The notes under the pieces are model-generated. The model had not been told where the DNA came from. It saw nothing but the letters and a program-made list of their open reading frames with translations, and did no database searches. Shown here piece by piece: positions 307 through 62,640 of a stretch of 64,000 nt of DNA (positions within the stretch are counted from its first letter, which is position 1; every line of letters starts with the position of its first letter). Source of the DNA: Methanoregula sp. PtaU1.Bin051 (GTDB lineage Archaea > Halobacteriota > Methanomicrobia > Methanomicrobiales > Methanospirillaceae); assembly GCA_002067895.1 (NCBI GenBank), contig MVRE01000013.1, positions 62,001 to 126,000 on the forward strand, given 5' to 3'. A program made the position numbers and the translations under genes.

Positions 307-854
307 TTGGATCTCTTTGTTGATACCGGCGTCGTATTCGGATATGGGTATATGAATAAAGATCCTTTTTTTTTTATTCATGTCAGATGCTATTTGATGG
401 CCGTAATTTCAAAGGGAACAATTATTTTACTACGAAAGGGATTGTAAGACGTGAAATAAACAACGTCAAACTAAAAAGATTAGTAAATGCTTCAAGTGGT
501 ATTATTCGGTTATTTTGCTTGAGAGCAGATACAGTTCTAGAGAGAATTACAGACATCTCTTTTCCCAATCATCCAAAATATAGACAGTTAACTGATACCC
601 TTGAAGCATTTCTTCTTTCTATAAGAAAAGATGATGATGAAAAACAACATGATGCAATTTTATTATCAAATTCTCATATTTGGGCTGTGACTAATCCGGC
701 ATTGAATTCGCCATATTTTCTTACAAGTGATAAAAAAGATATTTTCGATCATCATCCCGAAATAACCCAACGAGTAACTTCATGTTTGGCATCGTCATGT
801 CCACTAAAAATTGATTATCTTCCTTACTTCATTCAGAGAGGGATAGCAAGTTGA
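307..854 (+). pseudogene. PIN-domain nuclease-like gene with a frameshift in a T10 tract
   Basis: A TTG at 307 has a GGAG ribosome site 8 bases upstream (295-298). It opens with LDLFVDTGVVFGY, the usual first strand of a PIN domain with its first Asp. This frame shifts out at a run of ten T (366-375). One more T would join it to the frame running to 854, which supplies the other PIN acidic residues: RREI, QHDAILL and TSDKKD. Joined, the protein would be about 182 residues, a normal PIN size. An internal ATG at 387 gives a 155-residue product without the first Asp. The gene is AT-rich like its neighbour and ends 26 bases inside the convergent gene. It could be a decayed gene, slippage-dependent expression or a read error. 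Confidence 0.6.
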
Positions 855-1821
855 AAATTTCCAATTTTTTCTCCTGATTCATTTTATTTAATTCGAGTTC
901 AATTTCTTTGTCAAAATCTTCGATTTTTGGTTTAAGTCCATATTTAGTCATCATTCCTTCAATCTCTGATAATCGCATCTTAGACCAATTTATTTTATTC
1001 TCAATGGTGGTATTGTAACTCTGTTTCTCATATTCAATATCTCCACCAGATAATGTCTCAATATAGGGGTATAGCAGAAAAGAAATGTTTCTTTTATATA
1101 AATCAATGAGATCTCCAAGAATATTTTTACCAATTGTAGCATTGAAATCATGGCATTTGAATGCCAATAACAGATTCTCTAAAAGTTCAGTGAATTTAAA
1201 ATAATATTCAATCTTCTCTTTCTGCACAAAATTTAGACAATTATCAAGATTTGAAATTTTCTCACCGATAGTTTTAGATGATGATACTAACTCATCTTTT
1301 CTCATTTTTGATAATTTGTTTAAGGCTCTTTCAAATTTCTCCCCAGAAGCATACAACTCGACATATTCTTGTGGCACATCAAGTGTATGTGCTTCCTTCA
1401 TGAATCTATTAAATTGACTGAGAAATTTTGAATTCAACTGAATAACAATAGGCGTAACAAAATCAATGAATTCATAATTTAATGTTTGATCTCTTTTAAG
1501 ACCAAACAATGATTGATAGGTGAATTGAGTATTCATTAAATCAAACACGCGAAATGAGAAATGACCATACTTATAGAAACCATGCCCAAGCCGAGTATAT
1601 CCACGTTCCTCAGCCACTTTTAAAACTAGTTTCACAGATTTTGTATGTTTGATATGTTTCCTTTCTGATGAGTATGCCTTATGAGTGGCGGCAAAAACAG
1701 ATTTTACAAATACATCAGGAGGAATTTCATTTATGTTTTTGAATTCCATTTTCAACCCAAATATATTGAAAGCAATTCTCTTTATTGTGTAGATAACCTT
1801 TTTGATATAATTTTGCATCAT
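829..1821 (-). CDS. Unrecognised 330-residue protein in the AT-rich island
   Basis: I do not recognise this family. The protein is Lys-, Glu- and Phe-rich with no signal peptide. Residues 1-22 form a basic, mildly hydrophobic segment, and Met25 is an alternative start. Residues about 60-100 (HTKSVKLVLKVAEE, then GHGFYKYGHFSFRVFDL) look loosely like the compact helical fold of DUF4065/SocA-type antitoxins, but this is only an impression. The last third is helical and charged. It runs convergently to the PIN-like gene and overlaps its 3' end by 26 bases. Codon use is much more AT-rich than the rest of the window, which supports recent transfer. Confidence 0.6.
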   Translation of the reverse strand: MMQNYIKKVIYTIKRIAFNIFGLKMEFKNINEIPPDVFVKSVFAATHKAYSSERKHIKHTKSVKLVLKVAEERGYTRLGHGFYKYGHFSFRVFDLMNTQFTYQSLFGLKRDQTLNYEFIDFVTPIVIQLNSKFLSQFNRFMKEAHTLDVPQEYVELYASGEKFERALNKLSKMRKDELVSSSKTIGEKISNLDNCLNFVQKEKIEYYFKFTELLENLLLAFKCHDFNATIGKNILGDLIDLYKRNISFLLYPYIETLSGGDIEYEKQSYNTTIENKINWSKMRLSEIEGMMTKYGLKPKIEDFDKEIELELNKMNQEKKLEIFNLLSLSE

Positions 1822-8332: not shown

Positions 8333-9876
8333 TGACGAGGATACTTATCGCTGACGACAATGCGCAGAACCTGTACCTGCTGGAATCGATCCTGAAAGGA
8401 TACGGTTATAAGGCGGTATCCGCACGGAACGGCGCCGAGGCCCTTGAGGCTGCGCTGAAACAGCCGCCGGACCTGATTATTACGGATATTTTGATGCCGG
8501 TCATGGACGGGTTCGAGCTCTGCCGGCGGTGGAAAGCGGACGACCGGCTCAAAGAGATCCCCTTCGTTTTCTACACGGCTACGTACACGGATCCCAAGGA
8601 CGAGGAGTTTGCAAAAAACCTCGGGGCCGACCGGTTCATCATCAAGCCGCAGAAGCCGGAGGTTCTCGGCAGCATGGTGAAGGAGATTGTGGAAAAATGC
8701 CGGAAGAAAGCCCCCCTTGTTCCCGCACGGCCCCTTGGCGATGAGATGGAGGTCCTGCGGGAGTATAACGATACACTGTTCCGCAAGCTGGAAAAGAAGG
8801 TCCTGCAGCTGGAAGCGGAGATCAGCGAGCGCAGGAAGGTCGAGGCGGAACTGCGGGAAAGCGAGATGAAATTCCGGACGGTTGTAGAGAACGTCCCCGA
8901 TTTCATTATGGTCCACCGGGGCGGCACCATCATCTACGTCAACAACTCTGTCCTTCGCACAACCGGTTACGAATCCGGCGAGATCCTCGGCCAGCCCATC
9001 AGGAAGTTCATCGCCCCTGAATTCCGGGATACAGTTGAGTCTGCCATAAAGAAGCGGATGAAAGGCGAACCGATGGACCCGTATGAAGCTGACATCCTGA
9101 CAAAGTCGGGTTCCCGCATGACGGTGATGATCCGCGGCAGTTGTATCGAGTTTGCCGGTGCCCCCGCACTGCTGAATGTGCTCACCGACATTACCGAACG
9201 CAAGCAGGCTGAAGAAAAGATCCGTATCACGAACCGCAAACTGGCCCTCATGAATGAAGTGGCGTACCAGGATATCCAGAACAAGGTTACTGCGCTCCGG
9301 GGTTTTGTCGAGCTCAGGAAAGGAAGTGTAAGCGAAGAGGAGAGGACATCGTTCATCGAAAAAGAGAAAACGATCCTGAAATCCATCCACGACCTGATCA
9401 ACAAGACGAAGGATTACCAGCAGATGGGCGTGGACCAGTCCCGCTGGATGCCTCTTGAAACGGCTGTCCGGATGCAGTTCTCGCTCTTAAGCCTGAAGCA
9501 TAACGTGTCGCTTGAATGCGATCTGCCCGGGCTCGAGATCTATGCCGACCCCCTCATTGACCGGGTCTTCTACAGCCTCATGCACAATGCAATCCAGCAC
9601 GGGGGGACGGTGAATCATATCTTTTTTACGTCACGTGAAACCCCCGCCGGGCTGGTGCTGGTCTGCGAGGATGACGGTATCGGTATTCCTCAGGAAGAAA
9701 AGTCCAGTATTTTCAATCGCATCGTAGGAGGCAGGGGAAGGTTCGGCCTGTTCTTTGTACGGGAATTTTTAACCCTGTTTGGCATGAAGATAACGGAAAC
9801 GGGCGAGCCCGGCACGGGTGCCCGGTTCGAGATTTCAGTGCCGAAGGGAATGTACCGGTTTACCGGAAAAACGTAA
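8332..9876 (+). CDS. REC-PAS-histidine kinase-like protein with Gln at the phospho-acceptor site
   Basis: The protein has 514 residues. The ATG at 8332 follows an AGGAG site and overlaps the previous stop. Residues 1-125 are REC (D8/D9, D52, K in IIKPQKP). A coiled coil spans about 140-180 and a PAS domain about 185-310, ending in DITERKQAEE. A dimerisation segment and HATPase follow. In this archaeal kinase type the phospho-acceptor sits in a RHD motif, as in two other kinases of this window. Here the segment reads VAYQDIQNK, with CAG at 9268-9270. The N-box (SLMHNAIQHG), G1 (EDDGIGIP) and a poor G2 (GRFGLFF) remain. It may bind ATP but not autophosphorylate on His, acting as a REC-controlled scaffold or phosphatase. 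Confidence 0.8.
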   Translation: MTRILIADDNAQNLYLLESILKGYGYKAVSARNGAEALEAALKQPPDLIITDILMPVMDGFELCRRWKADDRLKEIPFVFYTATYTDPKDEEFAKNLGADRFIIKPQKPEVLGSMVKEIVEKCRKKAPLVPARPLGDEMEVLREYNDTLFRKLEKKVLQLEAEISERRKVEAELRESEMKFRTVVENVPDFIMVHRGGTIIYVNNSVLRTTGYESGEILGQPIRKFIAPEFRDTVESAIKKRMKGEPMDPYEADILTKSGSRMTVMIRGSCIEFAGAPALLNVLTDITERKQAEEKIRITNRKLALMNEVAYQDIQNKVTALRGFVELRKGSVSEEERTSFIEKEKTILKSIHDLINKTKDYQQMGVDQSRWMPLETAVRMQFSLLSLKHNVSLECDLPGLEIYADPLIDRVFYSLMHNAIQHGGTVNHIFFTSRETPAGLVLVCEDDGIGIPQEEKSSIFNRIVGGRGRFGLFFVREFLTLFGMKITETGEPGTGARFEISVPKGMYRFTGKT

Positions 9877-9950
9877 GGCCCGACCGCTCTATCACAAAGC
9901 GTATAATTCCACACGACTTTCTTTTCTGAAACGGGGATGAAAGGCAAAGC

Positions 9951-10008
9951 ATTTCAGGAACGTTTGATGAAAAAGCCGGGACTTTTTCATGCCAAATAGT
10001 TCCTGAAA
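9951..10008. other. Nested inverted repeat (two-tier hairpin)
   Basis: An outer 10-bp repeat, tttcaggaac (9952-9961) with gttcctgaaa (9999-10008), encloses a perfect 9-bp repeat, atgaaaaag (9967-9975) with ctttttcat (9982-9990), around a 6-base loop. It lies between the kinase stop at 9876 and the gene at 10034. It could be a structured leader RNA, a terminator-like element or a large operator. Confidence 0.6.
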
Positions 10009-10033
10009 CATTCGTTACGGGGATCTGATCCAG

Positions 10034-10519
10034 ATGACACGCGGGAGAAAACCGGAGAGCGCGATTGCCGATGCGAAAAAATTTGCGGAGCGGATGGGTT
10101 ACCACTGGATGGAGAATGCCGAACCGGACCTTCCGTTCGACCTCCTGATCTTCAAGGAAAATACCGTGCGCATCGTCAAGGTGAGGACGACGTTGAACCG
10201 TCTCGGCCCGGAAGATTTCTATGAGAAAAAATTTCCGGACGATGTCGCGGCCCTCTGCTCGCTCCCGTTTCCCCAGGGAATAATCCGCGAGCTCTGGCTG
10301 AAGTCGAGGGGCGAACGCGCCTGGTGCCGGCTCCATGTCACGACAGCAGGTGTCTGGGTGATCGAGTGGTGGGGGCCGGACAGGTACACGAACCCCCATG
10401 CCCGGCGGGAGATCAAAGAGAAGCCCGGGCCGACCGGGAAATTCATCGTGAAAAAGTCCGCCGGTCCCCGCATCATTATCCCCCCGGCTGAGCTCCCCGG
10501 GAGCGAGGCAGAAAAATAA
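10034..10519 (+). CDS. Conserved hypothetical protein, possible nuclease-like fold
   Basis: The protein has 161 residues, is basic at both ends and has no membrane segment. The first half has helix-strand-strand order with PFDLLIFKENTVRIVKVRT. This recalls the D..xK core of restriction-endonuclease-like folds, though the middle acidic residue is Val here, so catalysis is doubtful. The second half is Trp-rich (VWVIEWWGPDR) and the tail is low-complexity. It is preceded by a large nested hairpin and no clear ribosome site. It stands alone between the kinase operon and VapBC. I cannot name the family. Confidence 0.6.
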   Translation: MTRGRKPESAIADAKKFAERMGYHWMENAEPDLPFDLLIFKENTVRIVKVRTTLNRLGPEDFYEKKFPDDVAALCSLPFPQGIIRELWLKSRGERAWCRLHVTTAGVWVIEWWGPDRYTNPHARREIKEKPGPTGKFIVKKSAGPRIIIPPAELPGSEAEK

Positions 10520-56827: not shown

Positions 56828-57490
56828 ATGAATCCGACTGAACAGACGCCATCTGCTCCCGAGCAGGAACAGCCGCCCCGGAAAGATCCTGCCGCTGCGC
56901 CACCCGCCCCTGAAACACCAGCCCCCGCTGCACCCGATCTTCCTAAACCGCAGCAGCCGGTTAAACCAGTGGCTGCACCGGCTCCGGCTGCACCCGCAAT
57001 TGAGAACCGCATCTTTGCGATCAAGACGACATCCAAGCAGGAGCGCACCGTTGCCGACAGCATTTTAAAGGCTATATCGACAAACGCGACCGATATCAAG
57101 GTGACGGCTGTCATCGTTCCCAATGAGCTGCAGGGCTACGTGCTTGTCGAAACCCCGGAGAAGATGAACCGGATCGAGCAGCTCGTGGAGAAGATCCCGC
57201 ATGCACGCGCGGTCGTCAGGAAGGGCAAGGACGAGGGGGAGAAGAGCTCGATGTCGCTCTCCGAGGTCGCCCACTTCCTCGTGCCAAAGCCGGTCGTCTC
57301 CGGGATCGAGGAGGGCACAATCGTCGAGCTGATTTCCGGCCCGTTCAAGGGTGAGAAGGCGGTTGTCAAGCGCGTGGACTCGGCAAAGGAAGAGATCACG
57401 GTCGAACTGTACGAGAGCGTTGTCCCCATCCCGATCACGGTCCGGGGCGACCATGTCCGCGTCGTAGAGAAATTCTCCGACCAGAAATAA
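56828..57490 (+). CDS. spt5: Transcription elongation factor Spt5 with a Pro/Ala-rich extension
   Basis: The protein has 220 residues. Residues 1-60 are Pro-, Ala- and Gln-rich, low-complexity and likely disordered. From about residue 60 come the NGN domain ([18 protein letters not shown]) and a KOW domain ([19 protein letters not shown]). Usual archaeal Spt5 is about 150 residues, so the extension is unusual. It binds RNA polymerase with Spt4. A T-rich tract (57504-57510) follows. Confidence 0.93.
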
Positions 57491-57503
57491 TCTCCTTCCC
57501 GTC

Positions 57504-57510
57504 TTTTTTT
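57504..57510 (+). terminator. T-tract terminator after spt5
   Basis: Seven T follow the spt5 stop by about 14 bases. The rest of 57511-57815, some 300 bases, shows no gene or convincing RNA fold. Confidence 0.4.
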
Positions 57511-57815
57511 AATTACCAGGTGCTGCATAGCGGCAGTCATCATAACCGGCTATTAAGTTACGCAGTTCTGCCCGCAGACCTCCGGGTCAGATGCAGAAAT
57601 ATCCCAGGATACCCCGTTATCCTGTAAAAAAAATTTTACGAAGGCGCCGCCCCCTTCTTCCGGGAGTCTCTGGACAGCCTTCCGGACACGTAATACCTAA
57701 GCTCACAGGTGAATATCAATCAGAACGCGAATACGGGGCATCCTTCAGATGGTCCTGGTATACATAGCTAAAATAGTGCCGCAGTAATAGTATTTTCAAT
57801 GGATGGACCTGGAAA

Positions 57816-58412
57816 ATGACACGCCCTGACCTAGCAACCGAGATCGACATGGTCGGAAGGATGATGATCGCCATTGAGAAGATTGAGGGATGCAGTGAGT
57901 TTGCAGGACTGGTTCCAGAGATCAGGACGAACATGGTGTTCGCACAACCAAATGCCCGTGCTTCCGATGAGGTCATGGCCGTCGATGGCCGGATTACCAT
58001 TATCGATGGCATGCCACGGGCAGCCGGGAGAGTCCGTTTCGGTGCATCAGGCCACATGGCACGGTTCATCATAGAGCTCATGAAGACCAATCCATCCATC
58101 CGGGCCGGGATAAATTTTGCAAATCTTCCCGGCTTTTCAGACTGGCTGTCAGACCGCTGCGTAAAGGAGGGACGGACGGTTGTACTTGTTGACCGTAGAA
58201 GCGAACCTGCACACCTCCGGATCACGGAGGGCTCTTCCATGCAGTGGAAGGCTGCAGAGGCTATTCGGGCCGCAGGCGGAAAGGTGCCGGACATCATATG
58301 CGATGCAGGCGGAATGGGCAAGGAGCCGGTGTGTATCCTCGTAGGGACCGAACCCGTCAGTGTCGCACAGGATGCATGTGCAATCGCGAGGGCATATGCG
58401 CGATCGCTGTAA
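57816..58412 (+). CDS. thiN: Stand-alone ThiN-type thiamine-phosphate synthase
   Basis: The protein has 198 residues. It matches the ThiN domain usually fused to ThiD (IRTNMVFAQPNARASDEVMAVDGRI, and INFANLPGFSDW, and PDIICDAGGMGKEP). ThiN joins the pyrimidine and thiazole phosphates to make thiamine phosphate. It is followed by thi4 about 70 bases later, so the two genes form a thiazole-to-thiamine unit. The enzyme is free-standing here. Confidence 0.85.
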   Translation: MTRPDLATEIDMVGRMMIAIEKIEGCSEFAGLVPEIRTNMVFAQPNARASDEVMAVDGRITIIDGMPRAAGRVRFGASGHMARFIIELMKTNPSIRAGINFANLPGFSDWLSDRCVKEGRTVVLVDRRSEPAHLRITEGSSMQWKAAEAIRAAGGKVPDIICDAGGMGKEPVCILVGTEPVSVAQDACAIARAYARSL

Positions 58413-58483
58413 TGCCCCGTTTTAACATTAAGGATTGCCAACATTGTTAACGCGGTTCAGAAGATAATCAGGAGGCGATTACA

Positions 58484-59248
58484 ATGGAACTCGATGAAAT
58501 TACGATCAGCAGGGCGATTCTTACGGCACAGATGAAAACCCTGATCGATCATATGGAGCTTGATGCGGCTGTTGTCGGGGCAGGTCCCTCCGGGCTTACC
58601 TGCGCGGCACTTCTTGCTGAAAAAGGCATTAAAGTCGGCATCATTGAGAAGAAGCTCTCTATCGGTGGAGGTATGTGGGGCGGCGGGATGATGTTCCCGA
58701 AAATAGTCGTGCAGGAAGAGGCGCGCCGCCTGCTCGACCGGTTCCATATCCGTTCCACGCCATACCGGGAAGGGTATTACGTTGCAGCGTCGGTCGAGGC
58801 CGTCTCCAAACTTGCCGCCGCCGCATGCGATGCAGGCGCGGAATTCTTCAATCTCACATCGGTAGAGGATGTCATGATCAAGGCAGACGGGAGGGTCAGC
58901 GGGCTTGTCATCAACTGGACTGCTGTCGAAATGGGAAAACTCCATGTCGACCCGCTGGTAATTGGATGCAGGTTCACGGTTGACGCAACCGGCCACGATG
59001 CAGTCGTTGCAAGGCTTGTTGCGAGGAAGGGGGGCGACCTCCAGGTCAAAGGCGAGGGTTTCATGTGGGCAGATCGTGCCGAGTCACGCATCCTGGAGCA
59101 TACGAGGGAGGTGTTCCCCGGCCTTATCGTTACCGGCATGGCGGCAAATGCCGTTGCAGGTGAGAGCCGGATGGGCCCGGTTTTTGGCGGGATGCTCCTT
59201 TCCGGCGAACATGCCGCTGAACTTGTCATCAGCAGGATGAAGGAATAA
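58484..59248 (+). CDS. thi4: Thiazole synthase Thi4, His-type (sulfide-using)
   Basis: The protein has 254 residues. FAD/NAD-binding motif VVGAGPSGLTCAALL and GGGMWGGGM are typical. The position of the yeast suicide Cys is His here (H154 in GKLHVDPL), so it should use free sulfide and iron and act as a true catalyst, as in Methanocaldococcus. It makes the thiazole from NAD and glycine. Its upstream region has GGAGG before the ATG. Confidence 0.93.
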   Translation: MELDEITISRAILTAQMKTLIDHMELDAAVVGAGPSGLTCAALLAEKGIKVGIIEKKLSIGGGMWGGGMMFPKIVVQEEARRLLDRFHIRSTPYREGYYVAASVEAVSKLAAAACDAGAEFFNLTSVEDVMIKADGRVSGLVINWTAVEMGKLHVDPLVIGCRFTVDATGHDAVVARLVARKGGDLQVKGEGFMWADRAESRILEHTREVFPGLIVTGMAANAVAGESRMGPVFGGMLLSGEHAAELVISRMKE

Positions 59249-59300
59249 ACAGGGGACGGTACGGGTTTTTATAAGACTTAACCGGCCGTAAGGGGGAGGT

Positions 59301-59801
59301 TCAACCCTTCCTCTTCCGTTCCTCGTTGATCGCGTCCCTCTTCTTTGCAGCGGCGGCAAAGACCGCGAGAAGATCCTGCCGGTCCTTGTCGAACTCCGCC
59401 ATGTCCGTCACATTTCCCCCGATCATGGGCGGGCAGTAGGGGATGTCGCCGATCGCGGAGAAGTCGTCATCGGCAACCTGAAGTGCAAACGATCTGCCGA
59501 TCTCCGGCTCGATGACCTTGTCAAGCGGGTTTTCGCCCCGGACCTTGACATCAATATCCAGCGCGGCCTTCATTCCTGCAAGCGTCGTCGTCGCAAAACC
59601 GAGAACAATGATCTCGCGGGGATCGAAGATGTTGATGAAGGTCAGCAGGCGGCCGCTGCTCCCGTCCTCCTCCATTCCCTCGATCCCGAAGCCGGTCGTA
59701 TGGAACTACGCCTTCCGGAAATCCTCGTACGTCTTTCCCTCCTTCAGTTTCCTTGTCAGGATCGACACAGTCCGGACCAATTTTGGTTTTTCTGCCGCCA
59801 T
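59301..59801 (-). pseudogene. Conserved protein interrupted by an in-frame TAG
   Basis: From ATG 59801 the frame reads PKLVRTVSILTRKLKEGKTY, then EDFRKA, then TAG (59706-59708), then FHTTGFG and on to 59301, ending KKRDAINEERKRKG. Without the TAG the protein is 166 residues. The Ala-stop-Phe position most simply was Trp (TGG to TAG). A shorter product could start at Met 59675. The family is a conserved one that I cannot name, with INIFDPREIIVLGFA and DIPYCPP motifs. Confidence 0.6.
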
Positions 59802-59994
59802 AATCTCACTGCGGGTAATTATGTGAAAGATATTTAAGAAGTGATCGGAGATGAGACGGAGGGCTTTTTTAAGCTTAACCGGGTATGGCTGTCGAAGTAT
59901 AACGCTCTAAAGTTGAAAGTCTGCCATTCAATGGCGCCGGCTGGCCGGCTCGGACGATATTACAGGGCACCCATCCCGGTAGAAAACGTCAGCA

Positions 59995-60297
59995 CTATTC
60001 TTCTTTTGGCGATCGTTCAATGGATTTCACGTTATAGTCCTTGTCCACATTTACCTTCACAATATCCGCTGTATAAGTGTGTGCGCGCAGCATGGTGGCC
60101 AGGAGCGATTCCGGGCTCCCGTCAGGACGATGCTTAACAGTTACCTGTACCTTGTGATAGGGTTCCATGCTCGTCAGCAGGAGTTTGTCCTTGATCACAT
60201 TCTGGATCTTCCTGCGGTCCGCGGCTGAATAGGTCTTTCTGGTCGCTCCGGGAAGAACCACAACTTCGACATCCTCATTGGCATGTTTCTCAGTCAT
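59995..60297 (-). CDS. Stand-alone partner domain of the CHAT-like protease
   Basis: The protein has 100 residues. It matches residues 1-95 of the next upstream gene: EPYHKVQVTVKHRPDG and LRAHTYTADIVKV, against EPYHKVNVVVKHRRDG and LRAYTYTADIARI. A GAGGAG site precedes its ATG. It follows the protease gene by about 95 bases on the same strand and is probably co-transcribed. It could cap, compete with or regulate the protease. Confidence 0.75.
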   Translation of the reverse strand: MTEKHANEDVEVVVLPGATRKTYSAADRRKIQNVIKDKLLLTSMEPYHKVQVTVKHRPDGSPESLLATMLRAHTYTADIVKVNVDKDYNVKSIERSPKEE

Positions 60298-60392
60298 ATG
60301 CGATTCTCCTCAGGAAAGGTTTGTGGGGAGAGGTCTCCCCGGCGGATCCATGGCCCGCTCTGATGGCGTCCGATGAAGACAGTTTCCATTCC

Positions 60393-61295
60393 TCAGCATT
60401 TCGGGATGGGCAGGAATTTACCAACATCACCGCTGATGCCGTGGGCGTTCGCCACCGGGTACTTTGCCCTCTCACAGGTCCTGAGAGCCACTCCCATCTT
60501 TTCCTTACCTTTCAGCACTTTGGTCCAGAAGCATTTGAATACTTCTTCGGAGGGTCCGATCAGCAGGTTCACCTTGCCGCCAACAAACGTCCTTGCACCT
60601 GCTTTCATGATCGCCGGCTGCAGCGGTGAATTGAAAACCTGGCATGAGTTGAAATAGATAACCTCAGGACAGAGGGCCTTCTTTCCCAAACTGGAGAACC
60701 ACTTGTATGTGAGGTTTCCATCGGCCAGGACAATGCCTTCTGTCCAGCCGTGGCCGATGTTTCCGAAACCCTTCAGGTGTCCGCTCAGGAAATGTTTGTA
60801 ATTAGTCAGGTTCGCGTCTTTCCCGAGGAGCTTCACGCACTTGTAACCGGCGCTCGTTGCAATCTTATACGCGGTTTCAACTCCCTGTTTAGCTGTGACG
60901 ATCTCCGGAACCGGCGTGCTAAACACCATATCTACAACTTTTGGTTTGACGATATGACCGGCTGCACGCGGGGCGGCCGCGTATTCAACCTCCTCCTCCT
61001 CTACGTATGACAGCTCGACCCCCCTGACGGCGTACTTCTCGTCGATATCGATTCTGGCGATGTCTGCAGTATACGTATAGGCCCTGAGCATGTAGGCTAT
61101 AAGGGCTTCCGGTTTGCCATCGCGGCGATGCTTCACGACTACGTTGACCTTGTGATAGGGCTCTGTGCTCGGTAGCAGCAGCTCATCCATCACTGCTTTT
61201 TGGATCTGTTTGCTCTCACCGGCGCTGTAGACTGCCTTGACGGCAGTCCCCAGGACGACGACTGGCACGTTTTCATTCACGTTCATCTCAACCAT
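60393..61295 (-). CDS. CHAT/caspase-like (clan CD) protease with a unique N-terminal domain
   Basis: The protein has 300 residues. Residues 1-95 are the same domain as in the 100-residue neighbour. After an acidic linker (about 98-108), residues 120-285 resemble a caspase-haemoglobinase fold: NIGHGWTEG with catalytic His182, strand PEVIYFNSCQ with Cys218, then KAGARTFVGGKVNLLIGPSEEVFKCFW, as in CHAT/gingipain-like proteases. An AAGGAGGT site sits 7 bases before the ATG, and a TATA-like atttatattttg is at about 61334-61346. No signal peptide, so it is intracellular. Confidence 0.75.
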   Translation of the reverse strand: MVEMNVNENVPVVVLGTAVKAVYSAGESKQIQKAVMDELLLPSTEPYHKVNVVVKHRRDGKPEALIAYMLRAYTYTADIARIDIDEKYAVRGVELSYVEEEEVEYAAAPRAAGHIVKPKVVDMVFSTPVPEIVTAKQGVETAYKIATSAGYKCVKLLGKDANLTNYKHFLSGHLKGFGNIGHGWTEGIVLADGNLTYKWFSSLGKKALCPEVIYFNSCQVFNSPLQPAIMKAGARTFVGGKVNLLIGPSEEVFKCFWTKVLKGKEKMGVALRTCERAKYPVANAHGISGDVGKFLPIPKC

Positions 61296-61333
61296 ATCAT
61301 AACCTCCTTTTTATAAACTAGAAGTTATCCTCA

Positions 61334-61346
61334 AAATATAAATAAT
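61334..61346 (-). promoter_or_regulatory. TATA box of the CHAT-like operon
   Basis: On the minus strand the AT-rich site (plus strand caaaatataaat) lies about 45 bases before ATG 61295, giving a short leader that contains the strong AAGGAGGT ribosome site (about 61303-61310). Confidence 0.45.
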
Positions 61347-61557: not shown

Positions 61558-62370
61558 CTACCCGAACAGGCCGAAGAGCCCGCGGCTCTGTTGTTCGGCA
61601 GACGCAACCTGGCCGAGCCGGGCATTCTCTTCCTGCATAATCCGGAGCTGCTCTTCGAGCATGGCCCGGGTTTCGGTGTCAAGGCCCGCGGTATTCATGA
61701 GCTGCTCGATCTGCCGTATGCGGTTCTGGTTCTCTGTCGTCAGGTGGGTGAGTTCAGCCGCTGAGACGCGATCGCCGCCGAAGAAGAACCTGCTGAAGGC
61801 ATCCCGGCTCCGGATCTGCTCTTCAAGCTGCCATGTCTGCAGGGCGGAGTTGTTGAAGTCGCGGGCGATTTCGGATACCTGCGGCCCTATCCCGCCGGTG
61901 ATATCTTCCATGGCAAGGAGCGTGTGGACGGCCAGGCGGACCTCATTATCGTTTGCGACCCACCCGGCGCGGACCGGTGTCGCGTTGCGGAGCGTTGCGT
62001 TCAGCACGTTGCGTTCCTGGAGGATCCTTTCGCGTATTACGGACGTGTTCCGAACAGCGTCCGTCTCATTCGCTCGGAGCGCTGTCTGTATCTCTTGACG
62101 TTCCCGTGTCTGGTTCTGGACCGGGGGCTCCACCTCCTTACCGGTCTGGTTCCTGTTTCTGAGCTGTTCCTGAATAGTCTCGCGTACCTGCGTGACATTC
62201 TCTTCAATCCTGTCAACGACTTTTCTTACCGCATCGCCCTGGCCCTGATTATCGTTGGAGGGAAGGGCAATACCGGCAGGTCTTCCGATCTCGTTTCCGG
62301 CTGCGGTTACGGGCATCGCAAGAATGGATAAACAGATGGCAATGATCAGGATTACAGTTATGCGTTTCAT
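61558..62370 (-). CDS. Secreted coiled-coil protein
   Basis: The protein has 270 residues. Start 62370 (MKRITV) gives a standard signal peptide ending PVTAAG; a longer start nine residues upstream is less likely. Residues about 45-130 are Gln/Glu/Asn-rich helices with several NxT sites. The remainder is helical with heptads (ELTHLTTENQNRIRQIEQLM, and MLEEQLRIMQEENARLG). No known domain. Probably an exported fibrous protein. Confidence 0.7.
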   Translation of the reverse strand: MKRITVILIIAICLSILAMPVTAAGNEIGRPAGIALPSNDNQGQGDAVRKVVDRIEENVTQVRETIQEQLRNRNQTGKEVEPPVQNQTRERQEIQTALRANETDAVRNTSVIRERILQERNVLNATLRNATPVRAGWVANDNEVRLAVHTLLAMEDITGGIGPQVSEIARDFNNSALQTWQLEEQIRSRDAFSRFFFGGDRVSAAELTHLTTENQNRIRQIEQLMNTAGLDTETRAMLEEQLRIMQEENARLGQVASAEQQSRGLFGLFG

Positions 62371-62640
62371 GAGCAATCCCACGTATTTTATTTGCACCTT
62401 TCTTTCAGGCTGTTAAAAAATATTTTGAAATTATATTGCTCACTCAAGAAAACCGTACGTCCTGCACTTCAAGGGCAGCAGGGATTGGCGGAATACCGGT
62501 ATAATGGTTTTGAAGCAGCTGTCATATCCCGGCCAAAAGATAAGGAAAGAAGAGAATTATCCCCGTTCGTATTCCGGAAAATTTCCGGAAAATTTTCATT
62601 GCATTCAACGGATGGTATTTGATATGTTAAAATTGCACGA

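Follow-up and report, generated by a model that had tools for sequence, protein, structure and literature searches.

The streptococcal protease SpeB is papain-like and belongs to clan CA, as do the target enzymes of the I29 inhibitors. Free relatives of a protease's N-terminal domain have been described in three settings: Spi is a propeptide analogue whose gene is juxtaposed to that of SpeB and co-transcribed with it (PMC2873492), the I29 proteins are stand-alone, propeptide-like inhibitors of their cognate protease class (PMC4089206), and the CARD-only proteins, which duplicate nothing but that domain and are encoded beside caspase-1, bind the caspase-1 prodomain and inhibit the enzyme (PMC3775265). 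The N-terminal prodomain of gingipain R (RgpB), described as the largest in clan CD, inhibits by putting an Arg in the S1 pocket (PMC4357240).

Here we describe a two-gene pair in Methanoregula sp. PtaU1.Bin051, found in a stretch of 64,000 nt (the window), in which a 300-residue candidate clan CD cysteine protease is followed by a free copy of its own N-terminal domain. As in SpeB/Spi of Streptococcus pyogenes, a free homologue of the protease N-terminal domain adjoins the protease gene on the same strand (95 bp apart here); unlike SpeB/Spi, the pair is archaeal, lacks a signal peptide, has domains unrelated in sequence and carries a clan CD catalytic domain rather than the papain-like fold that defines SpeB/Spi proper (family C10). 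As in caspase-1 with CARD16/17/18, a domain-only duplicate adjoins the gene of a clan CD protease, although the CARD is a helical death-fold, the domain here is a helix with a beta-sheet, and the vertebrate signaling platform is absent. The I29 cathepsin inhibitors (CTLA-2, crammer, BCPI) are likewise stand-alone prodomain homologues, but they are animal proteins of unrelated sequence. A preliminary description of this locus had held that no system with such a layout was known; given the SpeB/Spi, CARD-only and I29 precedents, that claim was wrong. For a prokaryotic clan CD protease, no such layout of protease plus free domain was found in the open literature.

A protease gene and a free copy of its N-terminal domain

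Both open reading frames lie on the minus strand where the preliminary description had put them: the protease at 60393..61295 and, downstream of it, the 100-residue free copy at 59995..60297. The protease consists of an N-terminal domain (residues 1-100, 60996..61295, delimited by alignment to the free copy and by AlphaFold2 models), a disordered linker with an acidic first half (residues 97-118, 60942..61007; pLDDT 47 for block 101-110 and 64 for block 111-120), and a catalytic domain (residues 119-300 plus the stop, 60393..60941). By eye, each gene is preceded by a strong Shine-Dalgarno sequence: AAGGAGG at 61303-61309 for the protease, within an upstream region (61303..61344) that also holds a TATA-like ATTTATATTTT at 61334-61344 (unscored), and TGAGGAG at 60306-60312 for the free copy, within the 95-bp intergenic gap (60298..60392). 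No TATA-like box was seen by eye in that gap, such an element standing only ahead of the protease, so that the two genes are likely cotranscribed.

The free copy aligns to protease residues 1-100 over 100/100 residues without a gap (BLASTP, 54% identity, 72% positives, E=6e-37), a similarity far above chance, and it terminates at SPKEE, the very point where the protease linker starts; it has neither linker nor catalytic domain. We considered that it might be a pseudogene, a full-length duplicate minus its catalytic part, and dropped this idea: there is no catalytic remnant in 57400-60392. The two N-domain coding sequences differ at 32, 28 and 67 sites at codon positions 1, 2 and 3, respectively (dN 0.38, with synonymous change saturated and no dS value obtainable), and since these differences fall mostly at third positions, both copies appear to have been kept as protein. 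Most of the positions conserved in N-domains across the family alignment are retained in the free copy.

The free copy groups with the N-domain of the adjoining protease (ultrafast bootstrap 93, SH-aLRT 100), and a profile of 12 N-domains finds two in the source genome and one in each of the 11 other close-family genomes; a local duplication in the source lineage is therefore its most likely origin. None of those 11 genomes carries a free N-domain, the profile finds elsewhere among the 108 genomes of the archaeon's family only a fused copy (in G218), and the source genome (2.3 Mb, 23 contigs, 96% complete) holds no further copy of either part.

Predicted folds of the two domains

The AlphaFold2 model of the 300-residue protein, built with 11 related loci as the alignment, reached pLDDT 86.6 and pTM 0.86. 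By structure comparison (VIA-align), residues 119-298 of this model adopt the alpha-beta-alpha, caspase/hemoglobinase fold of clan CD cysteine proteases: the top match is RgpB (family C25; Z 18.3, 176 residues, 2.7 A, 14% identity), and separase (Z 17.5), SAVED-CHAT (17.3), legumain (about 14), TPR-CHAT/Csx29 (13.0) and caspases (about 13) match as well. His182 (codon 60750-60752, in NIGHG) and the following G183 come after strand 174-180, and Cys218 (codon 60642-60644, in FNSCQV) comes after strand 210-216; these are the positions of the clan CD dyad. Both residues are kept in 11/11 covering rows of the family alignment and in every close relative read, as well as in two secreted-looking tandem relatives from another archaeon (G276). 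The earlier assignment to a CHAT, gingipain or caspase-like protease, with its numbering of the two residues, is thus borne out by the predicted fold and the intact, conserved dyad, and we regard the protein as a candidate clan CD cysteine protease that is presumably proteolytic.

Sequence searches of both proteins against Pfam, NCBIfam, PADLOC and PHROGs returned only noise, the Pfam profiles for gingipain C25 and CHAT matched none of the 13 aligned rows, and the PDB gave no match by sequence or by profile. We do not call the protein a legumain or a caspase because the fold is shared but the sequence match is absent. RgpB resembles it in catalytic fold and in having an N-terminal prodomain, but no free copy of that prodomain is described in PMC4357240; the CHAT proteases and separase share the fold, but their SAVED, TPR and CRISPR parts and their Pfam match are absent here. 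A distant Bdellovibrionota member (L052:1477-2397, minus strand) retains the Cys but reads NFYDG in place of the His motif NIGHG and is a probable pseudo-protease, so pseudo-enzymes exist among the relatives.

The N-terminal domain, modeled as the free copy (pLDDT 88.4), is ordered beta-alpha-beta-beta-beta-beta, the element order of cystatins. No solved structure stood out from background: the highest Z was 6.9, a value that unrelated models often reach, and the cystatin-like matches, to a designed fold (Z 5.8) and to adhiron (Z 4.8), were tied with HPF, NTF2 and PepSY-like chains. Identification as an HPF/YfiA-like ribosome binder was rejected, since its Z values, 6.9 or less, lie within background. 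The domain thus has no demonstrated relative, and an inhibitory role for it would not have homology as a support. The earlier view of a “private” domain with a free copy in the adjoining gene is likewise borne out. Of the two findings that would have spoken against the earlier reading, a fold lacking a Cys-His dyad and N-terminal domains that do not align, neither was obtained.

A thinly spread family and its surroundings

A profile made from the 300-residue protein and one relative recovered 11 loci from genome contigs, spanning about eight bacterial and archaeal phyla: Zixibacteria, Anaerolineae, another Methanomicrobiales archaeon (the locus in G218), two Pseudoduganella, two Oligoflexia, Bacteriovoracaceae, Verrucomicrobia, Krumholzibacteriota and a deltaproteobacterium. 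The contig scan rested on two short peptide patterns, and the single-sequence version found none of the relatives that the two-sequence alignment found; its reach was therefore limited, and the family is surely larger than 11 loci, perhaps with further free copies as yet unseen. Its distribution is very patchy: there is one other convincing genome among 232 in the order of the source archaeon, and only the seed itself in the phylum Zixibacteria (1/132), the class Anaerolineae (1/278), the order of Pseudoduganella (1/300) and the phylum Verrucomicrobia (1/264). In the protein tree, a supported group (99/99) joins the other archaeal protein to four bacterial ones and leaves the source protein outside, a departure from organism relationships that points to horizontal transfer. 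No relatives were found in the plasmids and viral contigs searched; a match in G112 (E 0.0017, inside an archaeal pilin-like ORF) and a pair of phage SP-15 records (E 0.04 over 24% of the query) were taken as chance.

All close relatives read share one plan, N-domain, linker and catalytic core, while their C-terminal parts vary: fascin/DUF7910 repeats, DUF6623, beta/gamma crystallin, cysteine-rich repeats, a weak dockerin, or nothing. Judged by hydropathy only, six relatives (L008-L011, L013, L015) begin with a signal-peptide-like stretch, and the source protein, L005, L006, L007 and L014 lack one; for L012, the start coincides with a contig end. Two frames are needed to read L012 and L014, probably owing to assembly frameshifts in those MAGs. 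Where a signal-peptide-like stretch is present, in about half of the relatives, the N-domain comes directly after it, an arrangement that by analogy resembles secreted zymogens. No cleavage site is conserved in the linker across relatives; L005, L006 and L014, which are without signal peptides, have markedly acidic linkers (31-48% Asp/Glu).

Several relatives have neighbors or extensions of their own. In the three close Bdellovibrionota relatives, genes for leucine-rich-repeat proteins lie directly downstream of the protease (L010:8775-9941, L011:8941-10107, L013:8079-9038; LRR_4 at E 4e-35 and 6e-53 in the two that were scanned), making this protein a candidate conserved partner in all three. 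At their C-termini, the Pseudoduganella proteins (L008:7890-9638, L009:5334-7067) weakly resemble a dockerin (E 0.004 in L008); the gene after the L008 protease (9658-10323) has a PEP-CTERM-like motif at its end. The tandem distant relatives on contig C57 of G276 (L017, L022), from an archaeon of the same phylum, have long C-terminal regions and may start with an N-domain that has diverged; the N-domain profile gave no match there.

In the source genome, the genes around the pair read, from their translations, as housekeeping or of no recognizable function. A complete genome of the same genus shares only window positions 57812-59229 within the 15 kb that were compared, and it lacks the pair, both in that region and genome-wide. 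Just upstream of the pair (61558-62397, minus strand), a 279-residue protein has a signal-peptide-like start, a long charged body and no significant family match. Far from it, positions 1-2000 of the window are low in GC (35% vs about 56%) and open with the end of a transposase-like frame; this segment, which also contains a 330-residue ORF without known identity (829-1821, minus strand), is likely a recent insertion.

What the free copy may do

The N-domain is most simply read as a prodomain, because it is always fused ahead of the core, sits directly behind the signal-peptide-like stretch where relatives look secreted, and is linked to the core through a tether predicted to be disordered; because it remains fused in 11 loci while the C-termini vary, it would behave as a core-bound prodomain and not as a swappable sensor. 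A free prodomain copy beside its own protease is, in turn, best read as an inhibitor or decoy acting in trans. We give roughly even chances to the resulting model, a zymogen of the prodomain type whose inhibitor or decoy arose by local duplication and acts in trans: a cytoplasmic clan CD protease would be made zymogen-like, its N-terminal domain, of cystatin-like topology, restraining the catalytic domain and its His182-Cys218 dyad or helping it to fold from the end of a flexible linker, and the free protein would act on the same site as the protease's own N-domain. It could do so as a stand-alone prodomain-type inhibitor, protecting cellular proteins from stray protease that has become active, or it could be a decoy in competition with the fused N-domain; a trigger would then presumably release the enzyme.

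The CARD-only precedent, with its equal layout and its binding of the caspase-1 prodomain, also suggests a free copy that pairs with the N-domain and determines how the protease oligomerizes, serving as assembly decoy or co-activator. We think this unlikely, though worth keeping in mind: evidence for self-association of the N-domain is lacking, its helix-and-sheet fold is unlike death domains, and the relatives manage without a free copy. Rather improbable, to our minds, is a non-inhibitory exosite for a substrate or ligand, with the free copy delivering or masking the target. The N-domain does occur in every close relative and weakly resembles ribosome-binding HPF/YfiA, NTF2-like and PepSY/cystatin-like domains, but that resemblance stays below the level that separates true relatives, and targeting would seem a likelier task for the variable C-terminal domains of these proteins.

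That the free copy is found in one genome only, beside a protease itself patchily distributed, would fit a roleless by-product of partial duplication; this too seems improbable, given an ORF still intact at 54% identity, with third-position-biased differences, its own Shine-Dalgarno, retained conserved positions and a confident fold. The preliminary description had suggested a control switch, for instance a sensor domain acting on the protease in stress, defense or cell death. Control in some form is still the best reading; the link to a sensor, defense or cell death was not found. CHAT-type proteases do act in defense, SAVED-CHAT and TPR-CHAT are among the structural matches, and the extremely patchy distribution would suit a toxin/antidote-like or defense pair whose protease is released by an external signal, but PADLOC gave no significant match for the protease, no defense gene or sensor adjoins the pair, so that neither profile nor neighborhood marks it as known anti-phage defense, plasmid or virus relatives were not found, and roughly half of the relatives in bacteria appear to be secreted. 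Such a role is very improbable.

To our knowledge, how prokaryotic caspase-like and CHAT proteases are held in the off state is known for only a few. Elsewhere in biology, a protease gene next to a gene for its front domain alone usually means a protease with its own inhibitor. It is possible, if somewhat short of an even bet, that this is a new prokaryotic clan CD protease family with an undescribed small inhibitory prodomain, which the archaeon has detached to serve solely as an inhibitor in trans; the pair would then be an independently evolved prokaryotic counterpart of caspase-1 and the CARD-only proteins. The loci define an unnamed family with a constant N-domain and catalytic core and variable C-termini, thinly spread over about eight phyla, and the pair in a non-pathogenic methanogen, a compact and well-predicted enzyme with a 100-residue partner, makes the question of its control one that can be tested with two recombinant proteins.
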